Of a stretch of 64,000 bases of DNA, positions 7,057-39,986 are shown in pieces. Within the stretch, counting starts at the first letter, position 1. Every line of letters starts with the position of its first letter. A program made the position numbers and the translations under genes. Below the pieces are notes generated by a model. The model ran no database searches, had not been told where the DNA came from, and worked only from the letters and a program-made list of their open reading frames with translations. Source of the stretch: Tubiluchus corallicola (Eukaryota; Priapulida; Priapulimorpha; Priapulimorphida; Tubiluchidae); the NCBI GenBank assembly GCA_030141605.1, contig JAQGDQ010000114.1, forward strand, positions 1 through 64,000. The letters run 5' to 3'.

Positions 7057-7062
7057 TTGCTG

Positions 7063-8514
7063 ATGGTGGTTCATGTGGATGGTAGTGCAGAATGTTTTTC
7101 AGTTTTTTGTCCAAGTCCGTATGCCTACGCACGACACGCGGATGTGAAGTCACAACTTAAATACGGAGTTCCAGCAGTGTATGGGCACGACGGCATGAAA
7201 GGCGATGGTAAACCCAAACCACCTGGTCCAAAAGGTCCAACAGGGTACATGACATACGATCCTGTTCCTGGTTATCCGACAAAGAAAAAAAAGACTATTG
7301 AATACGGTGAAAATCGACCTTTAACAGAGAAGCATAAAAGAGGTAAAAGTCGTGCTAACTATGGAAATAAAGGACACGAAGTGAAACAAACAAATTCTTA
7401 TAAGCCAGATTTTGGGAACAAAGAATATGGCGATAAGCGCGAAGAAGAACCTCGTTTCAAGGAAAGTTTGCACGTGGTTGAAAAAATGAATTATTATGAA
7501 AAAGAGCTTGGCAAATTCAGCAGCAATAAAAATAAGTACGACAAAGTGCGGAAAAGCTCTCAAAGTAGGAAACCATATGGAATTCCCTACCCTGTGACCG
7601 ATAAAAGGAAGTATAATGATGATCATGCTAATCCTCCACCCCTCCATACAGCAGATGATATTAGGAACTATGCTGCTGCTAAGGTCCAAGCGCATGCTGA
7701 ACCTCACACCTTTAATAAGCCAGACAAAATTGGTAAAGACATTTACGAGCTGACACATAGCGGTGTTAATAAAAATGCCGGATATGACATTGTGCAAAGG
7801 CACGAAACAAGCGGCATGTCTCCATTTGAATATGTAGAGAAAATGTCACTTAAGCCAGTAAAAGAAAATGTGCCGTACGTTCCACAGCCAAAACATCTGT
7901 CTCACGCATCATATTCAAATACTGAGCATCAAGTTAATGCACATATTTCTCCTCTGTTAAAATCTTCAAAAGTTCCTCACCCTGATATAAAAGATTTAGA
8001 AAAAGCAGCTTATGCCAACGTCCCACATGCAAAATCGCCTGATATTTCCCATTACAAGCCTCAGCATATTAAATATGCAAATCCCGAAGAATTGGAACGT
8101 GCCGCTTTTGCAAATATTCCACACATAAAAACGTCTGGTATTTCACATCCACAACATGCGCTCATTAAATACCCACATCCCAAAGAAGTGGAAGATACTG
8201 TTTATGCACATGCTGGTGTACCTCAAGAAAAAACGCAAGATGTTACGCATCCTAAACCGCCGCCTATTCATTACCCCGATCCCAAAGAACTTGAGCGTGT
8301 TGCGTATGCTAATATCCCGCACACGAAAGCAGAAATGCGATACCCAAATCCCCAGCATTTGGAAAAATCTATCAATGTGCACATTTCTTCGCAAAAAACT
8401 CCACACGTTTCATTCCCTACGGCAAAGCAGCTAGAACAAGCAGCTTATGCTCACGTGCCTAAAAAGGACATTTATGAGGAAGTGGTGAAATTTACCAAAA
8501 GGCAATTATCATAG
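7063..8514 (+). CDS. Lys/Tyr/Pro/His-rich protein with about seven degenerate repeats
   Basis: A single open frame of 483 codons runs from ATG 7063 to TAG 8514. The frame stays open up to a splice-acceptor-like tttctag ending at 7056, so this may be the last exon of a longer gene. The N-terminal third is very rich in Lys, Gly, Tyr and Pro, with PKPPGPKGPTG near residue 50. From about residue 273 a unit of 23-37 residues recurs roughly seven times, with a core close to Y-P-x-P-x-x-L-E-x-A-A-Y-A-N-x-P-H. The best units start near residues 306, 337, 369, 403 and 450. Only two Cys occur, near the N-terminus, and no membrane segment is visible. A possible poly(A) signal (aataaa) lies at about 8565. 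I recognise no family. The composition recalls extracellular structural proteins, but that is inference. It lies inside the inverted repeat. Confidence 0.7.
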   Translation: MVVHVDGSAECFSVFCPSPYAYARHADVKSQLKYGVPAVYGHDGMKGDGKPKPPGPKGPTGYMTYDPVPGYPTKKKKTIEYGENRPLTEKHKRGKSRANYGNKGHEVKQTNSYKPDFGNKEYGDKREEEPRFKESLHVVEKMNYYEKELGKFSSNKNKYDKVRKSSQSRKPYGIPYPVTDKRKYNDDHANPPPLHTADDIRNYAAAKVQAHAEPHTFNKPDKIGKDIYELTHSGVNKNAGYDIVQRHETSGMSPFEYVEKMSLKPVKENVPYVPQPKHLSHASYSNTEHQVNAHISPLLKSSKVPHPDIKDLEKAAYANVPHAKSPDISHYKPQHIKYANPEELERAAFANIPHIKTSGISHPQHALIKYPHPKEVEDTVYAHAGVPQEKTQDVTHPKPPPIHYPDPKELERVAYANIPHTKAEMRYPNPQHLEKSINVHISSQKTPHVSFPTAKQLEQAAYAHVPKKDIYEEVVKFTKRQLS

Positions 8515-12879: not shown

Positions 12880-14200
12880 ATGTTTGCAGATGACACTAAT
12901 CTATTTTTAACAGATACTAAGATAATTAATTTACAAACCTCAGTTAATAGTGAATTGCCATAAGATTAATCAGTGGATGAAAGCTAACAAACTGTCTATT
13001 AACTATAAAAAGACAAAATACATGTTGATTACGCCTGGCCGCAAAACAGACGCATATGAAAATTTCCAGATTTCAATGAATAATCAAATATTAACTAGGT
13101 CTAAAGAAATTAAATACCTCGGTATGTTCATTGATGATAACTTAACATGGTCTACACAAATAAAACACATAACCTACAAAATTAGCAAAATCAAGGGCAT
13201 AATTGCGAGGATAAAACACTACGTAAATACAGACGTACTAAAACTAATATACCATGCTTTGGTTTATTCTTATCTTCACTATGGGATTCTTGCCTGTGGC
13301 ACTGCATCTTCAAATACTTTAAAACCAATACAAACTCATCAAAACATTATAGTTAAGCTGATGACATTTTCTGGTAGACGCGAACATGCAACGCAATCCT
13401 ACATTAAACTGGGCCTCTTGAAACTGAATGATATCTACAAACTCGAGCTTGCAAAATTTGTATATAAATTTAAGAATAACTTACTACCATATTTGTTTCT
13501 AAATTACTATATGCCAGTATCTGATATTCACAGTTACAACACTAGGTTTTCTACTAGCAGTTCTTTCTTCATCGAATGATTTAATACATCTAAGGGTCAA
13601 CGGTCGTTAAAATATCAGGGATCAGTTTTTTTGGAACTCCTTACCTGCTCATATAACTTCTTTACCTCTGCATTCACTAAATAAACAGTACGCTAAGGCA
13701 CTTCTTGAAACTTACAAATAAATCAGTTTTTTGTCTATTAGATGTACATTCTTGTGGTAACTTTTGCTGGAAAACAATTTTTTATAAGGTGCAAACTCAC
13801 TTTCTATAATGTACAACAATGAACATGCTTCTTATATTACAGGCAAACACAGTCAGCAAAATGGACATAATGATTTGACTCAGAAACAATTGTGAGGTAT
13901 TTTCAATGAGTTGCTTAGTAGTTGATAAATTTGTCATGGTTTTTGGTTTTTGATTTTTGTTTTTTTTTGCTGTTGTATTTTTGTTTTTGTATTTCTGCAC
14001 GTTTATGTATTTTTTAATATAGTTGTGTCTGCTGTCATTAGCGTCCTTTTGTTTACTGTCCTTTGAGAAGGGTGGTTGACTCGATAACCTTTGGTTTTTC
14101 GCCACCCTTTCTCCCAATGTTCGTTTGTATTTTTGTGTATTTCATTGTCAAATCATTGTAAATTTATGGAGGAAAATAAATTTACTATTACTATTAGTTA
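12880..14200 (+). mobile_element. 5'-truncated, inactivated non-LTR retrotransposon (LINE) 3' part
   Basis: The catalytic FADD motif of a LINE reverse transcriptase is encoded at 12883-12894. The thumb region follows (…INQWMKANKLSINYKKT…, then IKYLGMFIDDNLTW and YSYLHYGILACG), and the C-terminal WNSLP block at about 13630-13650. This order is typical of the Jockey/CR1/L2 side of the LINE tree. The copy is dead. There is a frameshift between 12940 and 12965, a TGA at 13577-13579, and an extra base in the T-run at about 13627-13634. The 3' untranslated part ends near 14200 with a short actatt repeat. The 5' portion, including endonuclease, is absent. Confidence 0.85.
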
Positions 14201-14512
14201 GTGCTATTATTTTAATTTGCGATTTCTTCATTTATTTGGCCTGACCTTTTATGTAATATTTAATAAACTATAACCTGCCCTTAAATTTCGCCTAACTTGA
14301 TTGTGGGAACTTTTCGAGTGAAACATCATGCAATGCCTCAAGTAAGTTTTAGTAATGAAGTCGACGTGATAGTGGTATGACAACAATTTTGTCAAGATTG
14401 CTTTGTTTGCGAGGTCAATCGCTGTTCACGGAAATAACTGCGGTTTGTGACGACGTTTTGGGCTGTTAGTCCATCAAAAAGTCCTAATATCGTCCCAAAC
14501 GCGCAAGAAATT

Positions 14513-16978
14513 ATGGCCAGTCCTCGGTGGAAGAACGGACAACATCGTGGCAAACAGGAAAATACCAGAAACGTCTACGAAAGGTCACAAAGCTATGAAT
14601 ACGAAGGCACTACTCCGCAGTCACCAATTCATTTAAGTCAACCTGTCAGAGAAGTTGGTATTATAGAAAAGCTTCTGCATTCATACGGTTTTATTCAGTG
14701 CTGCCAAAGACAAGACAGGGTATTCTTTCATTATAGCCAATATCGAGGTGATATCAATCAAGTATGTATCGGCGATGCAGTAGAATTTATTATGGGAGCT
14801 GATAGAAAAACAAACAAGCCTATTGCCTGTGACGTAATCACTGTGCCGCCAGTAATAGCTTCACCACTTCCTATGTTGCATGCTGAAAGAGTTTTAGGGA
14901 CAGTAATTTCACAAGCAAGATTTGGTTGTGAAGGTTCTCAGTATGGTGATGCTGAAAGGTCCATGGATGGTGGCATACAGTATGAGCAAAGTGGAGAAAG
15001 TTTTTTCTTGCCATATAATACAGATGATTTAACAGATCCATCGCAAAACCTCCAAGTAGGAGATCAAGTAACTTTCTTGATTGCACCAAGTAATACTGAT
15101 GGAAGTTTGAGAGCGGTAGACGTCGAAGCTTTAAACCATGGTGGTGAAAAAATTCAAGGTGTTATTTGCACATTGAAAGACTCGTTTGGCTTTATTGAAA
15201 GAGCTGATGTTGTAAAGGAAGTCTTTTTTCATTTCACTGAATATCAAGGTGATCTTTCAGAAATGCATCTAGGTGAAGACGTTGAATTTTGCATTCAGGA
15301 TAGACATAACAAAGAAGTTGCTGTAAGCATTGTTCCTCTTCCAAGTGGAACTGTCATTTTTGAAGATGTTAGTGAAGAAAAGTTGAAAGGTTATGTTAAA
15401 AAAACAGTTATAAGAAATAGAAGACAACTTCAAAATAACGATACTGCTGCTGGCAGGATATCCTTCAAAGTAGAGAATGATGATTTAGAAATTCAGTTTA
15501 GTGAGAAAGATATAAGTAGAGATTATACCTTGTTAGAAGGCGATTTTGTTAGTTTTCATATAGCAACTGACAGGCGTGATGAGATGCAACATGCAACACT
15601 TATTGAATTACAAGAAGAAAGTTTCTTAAACTCAGATGAAACAAGAGAAACTGGAGTAATAGCTGTCGTTAAAGAAGGATTTGGATTTATTAAATGTGCA
15701 GAACGAGAAGCAAGAATGTTCTTCCACTTCAGTGAATTGCTAAATTTTAGCCGTGAACCAAAACCTCAAGATGAAGTTGAATTCACTGTAACAGAGGACT
15801 GCAATTCTAATAGACCTGTTGCCATTAGAATCAGGACCCTTCCAAAAGGAAGTGTAACATTTGAAAAATTGTTGGAACAAAAGTATGTGGGACATGTAGA
15901 AAAGGAAGCATTTTCTAAACGTAGTAGTAACAGAAGTCCTACTAAAAGTAAAGAAGGGACCAACAACACTGGAGAAATTGGTGCTATTGTCTGTAGTATA
16001 GACAACGAAACTCATACTGTACAATTTTTCATGAAAGATGTTGATGTACGAAATGTGCCAAAAATTGGTGATACTGTAGAGTTTCAGCTTTTAGAACAGA
16101 CAAGAAATGGTACAAAAACAGCTGTAAACATTCGTGTCCTAACACGAGCTAGTTCAGGACAACAACTTAGTGGATTTATTACTGGTCTGAAGGAGAATTT
16201 CGGCTTTATTGAGACTTTGGAACACGATCGGGAAATCTTTTTTCACTACAGTAATTTTGATGGTAATCCAAATGTGCTGCATTTAGGCGATGAAGTTAAA
16301 TATAACATGATGAAAAAGAATGGTAAACAGTGTGCTGAAAATGTGATAAAAATTCCCCTAGGAACTATACCTGTTGATGACTTAGAAGACAAAGTGTATG
16401 AAGGTACTGTTATAAGACAGCTTCGTGCAAACATTCCTGATGGAGAGTATGCTGGATTAGTGCAAGATAGTGAGCTGAGTGTATACCCGTATACTATTGT
16501 TAGTCTACTAAATAAGCAAGAATTACTTCAAAAAGGCGACTCGATAACATTTCAACTGACAAAAAGTAATGACCGCAAACAGCAATTTGCAGCAAACATT
16601 GTTGTCAAACGACAGTTGGTTCAGTCACGTGTAGAAGCCATTAAAGGACAGTTTGGTTTCATGTCATATGAAGCAGAAGAAGGGAAGAAGCTGTTTTTTC
16701 ACATGAGTGAAGTTATGGGTAGTGTTGAGCTGCAGGTTGGCGACGTCGTTCAGTTTTTTGTCATACATAACCAACAAACTGGAAAGAAATCTGCTTGTAA
16801 CGTCAACAAAATCAGTAGTCAAACTGATGTACCACGACCGGAGCGTCTACTGAGTCGGCTAAAAAGCATCTCGCTTGATGAAAGCCAGCCTAGAATTGTT
16901 GTTTTACGGCAGCCAAAGCCACCAGATGGCGCAAATGGATTTAAGTTTATTCGCTCAGTTAAAATACCTGTAAAATAA
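14513..16978 (+). CDS. CSDE1: Cold shock domain-containing protein E1 (UNR)
   Basis: An RNA-binding regulator of mRNA translation and stability, cytoplasmic in known animals. The 821-residue product starts at ATG 14513. The frame is open upstream only from non-ATG codons. Five canonical cold-shock domains carry the RNA-binding FGFI and FFH motifs: YGFI near residue 57, FGFI near 223, 389 and 561, and FGFM near 712. Non-canonical domains alternate between them. A SUZ-C-like tail (PRPERLLSRLK) sits near residue 776, followed by RQPKPPDG. Order and length match human CSDE1 (about 798 residues). The whole coding region is one exon, unlike the multi-exon vertebrate gene. A good donor (CAA|gtaagt at 14342) and an acceptor ending at 14469 suggest a small 5'UTR intron. 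Confidence 0.95.
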   Translation: MASPRWKNGQHRGKQENTRNVYERSQSYEYEGTTPQSPIHLSQPVREVGIIEKLLHSYGFIQCCQRQDRVFFHYSQYRGDINQVCIGDAVEFIMGADRKTNKPIACDVITVPPVIASPLPMLHAERVLGTVISQARFGCEGSQYGDAERSMDGGIQYEQSGESFFLPYNTDDLTDPSQNLQVGDQVTFLIAPSNTDGSLRAVDVEALNHGGEKIQGVICTLKDSFGFIERADVVKEVFFHFTEYQGDLSEMHLGEDVEFCIQDRHNKEVAVSIVPLPSGTVIFEDVSEEKLKGYVKKTVIRNRRQLQNNDTAAGRISFKVENDDLEIQFSEKDISRDYTLLEGDFVSFHIATDRRDEMQHATLIELQEESFLNSDETRETGVIAVVKEGFGFIKCAEREARMFFHFSELLNFSREPKPQDEVEFTVTEDCNSNRPVAIRIRTLPKGSVTFEKLLEQKYVGHVEKEAFSKRSSNRSPTKSKEGTNNTGEIGAIVCSIDNETHTVQFFMKDVDVRNVPKIGDTVEFQLLEQTRNGTKTAVNIRVLTRASSGQQLSGFITGLKENFGFIETLEHDREIFFHYSNFDGNPNVLHLGDEVKYNMMKKNGKQCAENVIKIPLGTIPVDDLEDKVYEGTVIRQLRANIPDGEYAGLVQDSELSVYPYTIVSLLNKQELLQKGDSITFQLTKSNDRKQQFAANIVVKRQLVQSRVEAIKGQFGFMSYEAEEGKKLFFHMSEVMGSVELQVGDVVQFFVIHNQQTGKKSACNVNKISSQTDVPRPERLLSRLKSISLDESQPRIVVLRQPKPPDGANGFKFIRSVKIPVK

Positions 16979-20954: not shown

Positions 20955-37323
<16,369 letters not shown>

Positions 37324-37368: not shown

Positions 37369-39772
37369 CTGAAAATTGAAATACAGTTAATAACTAATTA
37401 TAATTTTAGATCTTGATGTCTTAATAAATAGATATTTTATTTGTGAGGCGGCTAACTGAAAATAAGTTGTAGTTAGACTTACTTTATCAGAGTTTAGTTC
37501 ATGGATAACTGAATCGTCTTTAAACAATCAGTTAACTATAGCAAGACGGTTTTGAGTTATTACTACACATTATTATTAGTGGCCTATCATACTGCACATT
37601 GAAACAATGATGTGTTTGAAGTTGACTATCAAGGGCTCTAGACTGTACAGCTGCTAAGCAACAGGAGTAGACATGTAGCACTAATAACTATTAACCTAAA
37701 TAGCTTGTGTAAAAATTAGCCAGGCATCCTTTTTAGGTTTACATGATACTTCTTTGGCAAACTCATTAATAACTTCAGCTATGCATGAATTCTGTTTCTA
37801 TGACATTGTAATTTCACTAAACAAATATTTTTTTACAACTGCAGCCACTAGTTCACAACAAGTTACTGCTTAACTGAATTGGTCTAATACTGTTATCAGA
37901 AATAGCAGGCTTCTCTGCCATTATTCAAGTTTAAATAGTAAATCATATAGAAGAATCTTAGGCATTATTAACATCAGCCAGTGACACAGCCAAGTGATTC
38001 AGATGCAGTTACTAAATTAGCAGTATGACAAGCAGCACAACATAATCCTTGTTTTTATTGTACATTCAAATTAATAAATGTAAATATGTACATTCTTGTA
38101 ATCCACTTAAAAAAGACCAGCAATGTAGTTGAAAGAAAGAAGGCATCTATAACAAGCCATTCCTATGTATGTACAATAGACATTGATCGGTTAGAGTTGT
38201 ACATATGCAATTAATTCGGTTAACAAACGTGTAGTGTACTTCGAATTACAAATTTTTGTAAGTGGTTGTAAAAACAAGTTATTACAGTTGACCTTATAAA
38301 GTAGGTACTATAAATGTAGTAATCAGTTTGGTCTGTGTGTCTGTCCACATGGTGTGCCTTTCTGTCTATATATTGCCACCTTTTCTTGGTTCTGGAATAA
38401 TCTGGAAAGTTGCATCTCGGTAGAGAAGTAGGAATCTCTCTCCAAACTCTGAGTCTATTGGTTTTTGGGTCAATCGGTGCAGATCTGAATTTTTCACAGT
38501 TTTTTAAAGATCTGCACATAACAGCTGTTGTGTTACTGAGGTGCAGGCGATTGATAGTCTGCTGCTTGGCCGTTATCAGACAACAACAATCAGTGACACA
38601 CATTTTAAGTTAATTCCAACTTGAAATAACCGTTGAATTCAGTCTATATCTAGACTGTTGCATTTTTTCATAGTATAATTTCCGTGATTAAGTATAATTT
38701 TAAGTGAAAATTACAAAACGTCAATATAGAAAATGCATCTTTTGCTGTAGTCTCCATGTATGTTGATCTCATCATAGTAACTGTATCCCTCTACTGGAGA
38801 CTCTGCAGTTTTATAAGCAAATAACATTATATTAACAGCTTTTTTAAGCAGCATGGCATGTTTGAAATTATCTTGACAAATTTGAAGTTAAAGTTCTTAC
38901 ATACACTTAAAAGTACACGAAGTAGCTGCAAAAAGTTTGTCCAAAAACAACAATTCATGAAATATAAAACTTTTAAAGAATCCAAATGATAGCATTAGTT
39001 TTATCATTTGCTTATAAATGACTGGAGTATCAATGTGCTTGACCAATTTTGCAATAATCAAAAGAAACTTTTGATGATTTTTTTCATATGAACATAATAG
39101 GAAATGACTAACGTTGACATGCTTTGTTCAGCTAATGAAATGCATTGTATAATCTACATTATTGTACTATACTCCAGCTAATTTTTGATGCTGAACCTAG
39201 GCAACTCAACTTGAAATCGGTTTGCTGCGAAATTCATGAAGGGTTGAAAGTGCCTAACACTATAATCATAGCTCTTTTTGTTATTCGTACTTTTTTCTCA
39301 GCTTGAATCAAAATATTGCATTATTTATATCTGTTAAATGATACTGTTTTTTCCTGTCTACAGGAAAAATCGCAAAAGTATGTTAAATATGTTTAGTACG
39401 CTTCGCATACTTTGATAAACTTTCTTGTGTTTTATGCTTAGGAAACTTCTCTTACAGAATAGAACTTAATATGGACTCTATTATTTACAAAAATTTCATG
39501 GTCAATAAACAATATATATAATTGGTTTCAGCATGATATCATATTACCATATAATTTACTTTATTTGCTTTTTGCGTACATCAAGCAAAATGTCATGCAA
39601 TGTCGGTTACTGAGTTTTCGTTAAAAACGGATTTATAAAAAACCTTGTAGGCAAATGGTAAGTAATAGTGGCCTATACAAAATTTATAACAAACTGGGAT
39701 AGTGGAGGATTGTGCAACTTTCATTTGATTTTCCTAGGATTTAGTTATACAAGAGTACAGATTTGTTCATAC
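37369..39772. other. Interval between COQ8 first coding exon and the mitoregulin-like exon
   Basis: Either an intron (if the two ORFs share a transcript) or intergenic DNA. An open frame on the minus strand at 38220-38603 reads through a gtctgt-rich patch and is probably spurious. Candidate AATAAA signals occur on the minus strand (for example near 39560), so an independent mitoregulin transcript ending here is also possible. Confidence 0.45.
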
Positions 39773-39794
39773 CTGTTTAACTCCAAAAAAATGT

Positions 39795-39971
39795 TCATAT
39801 AAGTCTGGTTTCTTCACTAATTTGATCTAAAGTCTTTTCCAGTTTTCGGTGGAGACGATCACGTTTATTCTTCAGATATCGTAATCTCCATGTTTTCAGC
39901 TGATATCCAAAAAGTACGCCAATGATAAAAGAAATACTAATAGTTGCTATTGTAGCATTCCTTGGTGTCAT
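39795..39971 (-). CDS. MTLN: Mitoregulin-like mitochondrial microprotein, 58 residues
   Basis: A 58-codon ORF runs from ATG 39971 to TGA 39795. Residues 8-23 form a hydrophobic helix ending in GVLFGYQ. A strongly basic segment follows (RLRYLKNKRDRLHRKL) with a short helical tail. Vertebrate mitoregulin (56 residues; an inner mitochondrial membrane protein that supports respiratory complexes and fatty-acid oxidation) has the same plan and the same spacing of key residues: GVLLGWQ, then RRRYL, RRL and KL. The putative exon is 39773-39986. It opens after an acceptor-like attgatag and closes at a donor (AACAG|gtatga). The ORF is on the COQ8 strand, 2.4 kb upstream of its first coding exon. It is too short for ordinary gene finders. 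The assignment rests on pattern comparison, not a search. Confidence 0.8.
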   Translation of the reverse strand: MTPRNATIATISISFIIGVLFGYQLKTWRLRYLKNKRDRLHRKLEKTLDQISEETRLI

Positions 39972-39986
39972 GTCAGTACAGATAGC

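Follow-up and report, generated by a model that had tools for sequence, protein, structure and literature searches.

Mitoregulin (MTLN, also called LINC00116, MOXI, MPM and LEMP) is a tiny mitochondrial membrane protein that is described, in the available passages of reviews, as confined to vertebrates. Several properties of the mammalian protein are disputed in the accessible text of PMC11920140, including the membrane in which it resides (inner or outer), its partners and its respiratory effects; the partners reported there are HADHA/HADHB, CYB5R3, cardiolipin, CPT1B and others. According to the available part of PMC7214441, mouse LEMP/MTLN replaced the zebrafish protein, the mammalian and zebrafish sequences being 71% identical, which suggests that mitoregulin function tolerates some divergence, although the protein described here lies much further away. 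In the text available from the published papers searched, no invertebrate mitoregulin was found. The family itself is known, and a member outside the vertebrates is new as far as that text shows; uncurated invertebrate entries, for example within the Pfam family PF22002, may already exist.

In this study, we analyzed a 64,000-nucleotide stretch of animal DNA, referred to throughout as the window, and a short open reading frame (ORF) within it. On the basis of its sequence, we read this ORF as an apparently single-copy mitoregulin orthologue in a non-vertebrate, probably protostome, animal, and we assign this reading a probability of roughly 0.87.

The open reading frame and its product

The ORF runs intact from ATG to TGA on the minus strand (39971..39795), whereas frame 1 of the plus strand is interrupted by stops over the same interval, 39795-39971. 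An earlier note on this DNA had placed a gene of 58 codons at 39795..39971 without naming a strand, and translation of the minus strand from methionine to stop returns 58 residues, followed by the TGA. The same note had described a hydrophobic N-terminal helix ending in GVLFGYQ and a mitoregulin-type basic tail running from RLRYL to RLHRKL, and these features are all found in the product. The most hydrophobic 17 residues are residues 6-22 (mean Kyte-Doolittle value 2.11), and the presumably transmembrane part, approximately residues 6-24 (39900..39956, minus strand) by hydropathy and by the helix in the predicted model, ends in GVLFGYQ. The 34-residue C-terminal tail that follows (39798..39899, minus strand) has a net charge of +6 by charge count and contains both RLRYL and RLHRKL.

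Structure prediction by AlphaFold2 without an alignment gave one helix spanning residues 3-57 in the best of five models (mean pLDDT 90.0, pTM 0.45), two of the five being far less confident (mean pLDDT 71.4 and 66.2). A fold search of the PDB with the best model returned no matches at E <= 10, as may be expected for a lone helix. The product has the form that characterizes mitoregulin, namely about 56 residues, a single hydrophobic N-terminal segment, a basic C-terminal tail and one predicted helix.

Match to the mitoregulin family

The best Pfam-A family for the ORF product is PF22002 (MTLN, mitoregulin), which it matches at 44.9 bits (E 1.1e-11) against a curated cut-off of 27 bits. Residues 10-51 (39819..39944, minus strand) align with profile positions 12-53 of 56 with no net gap. 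The match takes in GVLFGYQ, RLRYL and RLHRKL and the greater part of both helix and tail, and the N-terminal nine residues fall outside it. When the PF22002 profile was searched against the source genome (343,548,820 bases, or 343.5 Mb, in 2344 contigs, with only the best candidates scored and introns ignored), the single match at E <= 0.001 was the same ORF, at 43.9 bits and E 8.0e-9. The ORF protein used as a query against its own genome likewise gave one match at that threshold, and it is in this sense, one match at E <= 0.001, that we call the gene single-copy. The profile search that the earlier note had proposed as a check has returned a family match well over the cut-off, with no second match in the genome at E <= 0.001.

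As a positive control, the presumed human MTLN sequence that was used for all comparisons scores 106.8 bits on PF22002; as a negative control, none of nine shuffles that keep the compositions of helix and tail apart matches MTLN. No PF22002 match was found in 14 control genomes, a weak control because the eight named ones are prokaryotes. Local alignment of the ORF product with the presumed human MTLN is ungapped and scores 67, a value reached by none of 20000 segment shuffles (largest 63); among the window's 591 stop-to-stop stretches of 40-300 residues, the runner-up scores 38.

Identity to the presumed human protein amounts to only 15 of 54 positions. A single hydrophobic helix precedes a basic tail in the same order and place, the patterns GVLxGxQ, RxRYL and RLxxKL are kept, and the net charge of the whole protein is +7 in both, although the N terminus of the window protein has a net charge of +1 rather than -1. 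The expectation that length and spacing would follow the vertebrate 56-residue protein was borne out, with 58 residues, no net gap in the profile alignment and none in the pairwise one. The more specific expectation of GVLxGxQ and RRYL in register held for the former and, but for one position, for the latter, in which the second R of human RRRYL is replaced by L to give RLRYL. In contrast to the described members of the family, the protein comes from a non-vertebrate.

A sequence search of the PDB with the ORF product gave a best E of 0.72, and an NCBIfam scan produced one match, of 12 bits where the cut-off is 270; both are at chance level. Among viral contigs, a collection without animals, 88 pattern matches included no relatives, and neither did 419 pattern matches among prokaryote genomes, a collection that says nothing on animals.

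Proposed function

If the ORF is a mitoregulin gene, it would be transcribed and translated, its message perhaps including a non-coding exon both before and after the coding one, and by analogy with the mammalian protein the single hydrophobic helix would insert the product into a mitochondrial membrane. The positively charged helical tail might then lie along the membrane and hold anionic lipid (cardiolipin) together with partner proteins, and cardiolipin would be protected and complex I activity and fatty-acid oxidation supported, as is reported for the protein of mammals. Because GVLxGxQ, RxRYL and RLxxKL are conserved in this order across such a distance, the sequence suggests that function resides in a helix packing motif and in a basic patch close to the membrane. 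This mechanism is offered as the best-supported one rather than as a demonstrated one, and it is borrowed from the mammalian protein, for which it is itself disputed.

Alternative explanations

A helix followed by a basic tail is a simple design, and a chance product or an unrelated single-pass membrane microprotein might come to resemble mitoregulin by convergence. In favor of this, the window contains many short ORFs, 163 with an ATG and 40-100 codons, and 61 of them have at least 58 codons, so the length of the ORF alone is unremarkable. The low identity to the presumed human MTLN also fits convergence, as does a sub-threshold match to the LapA_dom family (see below), which indicates that the design is common to another family. 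However, a simple design would have to account for a genome-wide E of 8.0e-9 for the family profile, for the failure of every shuffle to match MTLN (0/9 with half compositions preserved) or to reach the pairwise score (0/20000), and for a shared register without net gap at nearly equal length. We regard convergence as very unlikely. A decayed or silent copy, in which the family was once present but the ORF is no longer expressed, is less probable still, and we consider it most unlikely. In its favor, the codon choice of the ORF is only weakly gene-like, ranking 17 of the 163 overall and 14 of the 163 on synonymous choice alone; four of the top eight ORFs by this score overlap exons of COQ8 or EML and one is a GA repeat. 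Against it, the frame is complete with start and stop, the family-specific residues are intact, and no second copy occurs in the genome at E <= 0.001.

A further alternative concerns the transcript only and is compatible with membership in the mitoregulin family. The interval 39773-39986 on the minus strand, which had been singled out in the earlier note, was recovered as a candidate exon from putative splice motifs only; it has an acceptor-like AG before 39986 and a donor-like CAG/GTATGA after 39773, and it extends 15 nt 5' of the ATG and 22 nt 3' of the stop. If the donor at 39772 is used, the exon could continue into the downstream COQ8 gene, so that the ORF would be the upstream cistron of one mRNA for two mitochondrial proteins. 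COQ8 does lie on the same strand, with exons from approximately 36.5 kb down to 20.9 kb (an N-terminal exon at 36014-36484 was assigned by eye), and the donor-like motif follows the stop of the ORF. However, the window contains three copies of the donor octamer CAGGTATG, the expectation being 1.4; as 18 of 100 shuffles also contain at least three, this 8-base donor is no rarer than chance. Moreover, an AATAAA motif about 230 nt past the stop (39560..39565, minus strand), a possible polyadenylation signal and an alternative to use of the donor, would let the transcript end independently. A shared mRNA appears unlikely. An Rfam scan of the window gave no matches at gathering scores, and a scan for bacterial-type promoters found 8 against 7.7 expected, a count without meaning here.

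Age of the family

A genuine non-vertebrate member moves the origin of the mitoregulin family back. To judge from the sequence, the gene is probably older than has been thought, and it is likely that mitoregulin was already present in the bilaterian ancestor, if not earlier, and is an ancient protein of animals rather than a vertebrate invention. The earlier suggestion that the family is under-recorded outside vertebrates agrees with the available text of PMC11920140. Such a member would also make deep alignments possible, which would reveal the residues that matter in a protein of disputed mechanism, and it suggests that other microproteins considered vertebrate-only may have gone unnoticed because they were not annotated.

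Whether the family reaches back further is a more speculative matter. The second match of the window protein in Pfam, a weak one after PF22002, is LapA_dom (PF06305), the bacterial lipopolysaccharide assembly protein A domain, at 18.1 bits; the presumed human MTLN scores 23.6 bits on the same profile, and both values are under the cut-off of 28. None of nine shuffles of the window protein matches LapA_dom. Both families place a basic tail after a membrane helix; however, the window protein falls short of the score for membership, and its match is restricted to profile positions 23-63 of 64, the last two thirds, with the profile start unmatched. A sub-threshold match of this kind can mean shared design or distant common origin and is a lead only. 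Because it is shared by the window protein and the presumed human MTLN and is lost in nine of nine shuffles, descent from a bacterial protein may be contemplated. The combined proposal, in which a mitoregulin already present in the bilaterian ancestor goes back to a protein of the bacterial inner membrane that arrived with the mitochondrion, nevertheless seems very improbable on these sequence comparisons.

Genomic context and source animal

The contig is 608 kb long, and the mitoregulin ORF is located at 39.8 kb on it, among the animal genes COQ8, CSDE1, NAA80 and EML. The assignment of COQ8 (minus strand) is based on joined exons that match COQ8B and COQ8A structures. COQ8A and COQ8B are the products of a vertebrate duplication. 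The window COQ8 is 65.0% identical (273/420) to COQ8B (9tvk; species not given), 63.5% identical (266/419) to a reconstructed tetrapod COQ8A (9tvn) and 62.2% identical (240/386) to COQ8A in 4ped. Over the same columns, 9tvn and 9tvk share 75.2% identity (315/419). As COQ8A and COQ8B are closer to each other than to the window gene, the latter split off before the two separated. Contamination with vertebrate DNA was considered and rejected on the grounds of the low identity to the presumed human MTLN, the 608-kb contig and the position of COQ8 outside the A/B pair.

Within the COQ8 region, a rhodopsin-type receptor in one exon (32154-33134, minus strand; Pfam 7tm_1, 81.7 bits) lies between the COQ8 exons at 36014-36484 (by eye) and 27592-27771, and it may nest in a COQ8 intron. 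A long GA/CT microsatellite at 22150-22600, also apparently in a COQ8 intron, gives low-complexity ORFs on both strands.

CSDE1/Unr (14447-16978, plus strand), identified by the Pfam families CSDE1 and CSD and by structures, is a single uninterrupted ORF of 843 codons; vertebrate CSDE1 is split into many exons. One of its cold-shock domains is 60% identical (45/75) to the solved CSDE1 chain 2ytx. Pieces of NAA80 lie at approximately 44.9-48.0 kb (plus strand) and pieces of EML at approximately 50.5-57.7 kb (minus strand). Elsewhere in the window, a 485-residue ORF at 7057-8514 (plus strand) contains degenerate internal repeats (KYANPEELERAAFANIPH, HYPDPKELERVAYANIPH), and an ORF at 12950-13579 (plus strand) resembles, by eye, the terminal part of a non-LTR reverse transcriptase; neither has a Pfam match at 0.001.

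A search of the genome for the Antennapedia homeodomain gave 37 matches, 30 of which were inspected. Judged by eye, these 30 include what we take to be Hox1- to Hox5-like genes and a Post2/AbdB-like gene, and we presume the labels Scr-like, Lox5/Antp-like, Lox2/Lox4-like and Post2-like from the homeodomains and their flanks. Three Hox-like genes share one contig and strand (C1217). The homeodomain of another locus (L007) is followed by a UbdA-like peptide, which diverges from the xxIxELN motif in the available text of PMC12852818. In the accessible parts of PMC12852818 and PMC2842273, this peptide is given as characteristic of Ubx/abd-A and Lox2/Lox4 in protostomes. The Hox genes look protostome, on labels assigned by eye, and we have fair confidence that the source is a protostome, which may belong to the lophotrochozoans. 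The description of the DNA as invertebrate in the earlier note is supported by the COQ8 and CSDE1 comparisons and, by eye, by these genes. No match to COX1 (PF00115) was found in the assembly. Profiles that we take to represent mollusc haemocyanin (PF14830), arthropod cuticle (PF00379) and the annelid linker (PF16915) also gave no matches in the assembly, and as the controls gave none either, absence of these families is unproven. Two further loci, L028 and L029 on contigs C205 and C528, carry the same homeobox gene with open frames of 314 residues that are identical in the part compared, and the pair represents either a recent duplicate or uncollapsed haplotypes.
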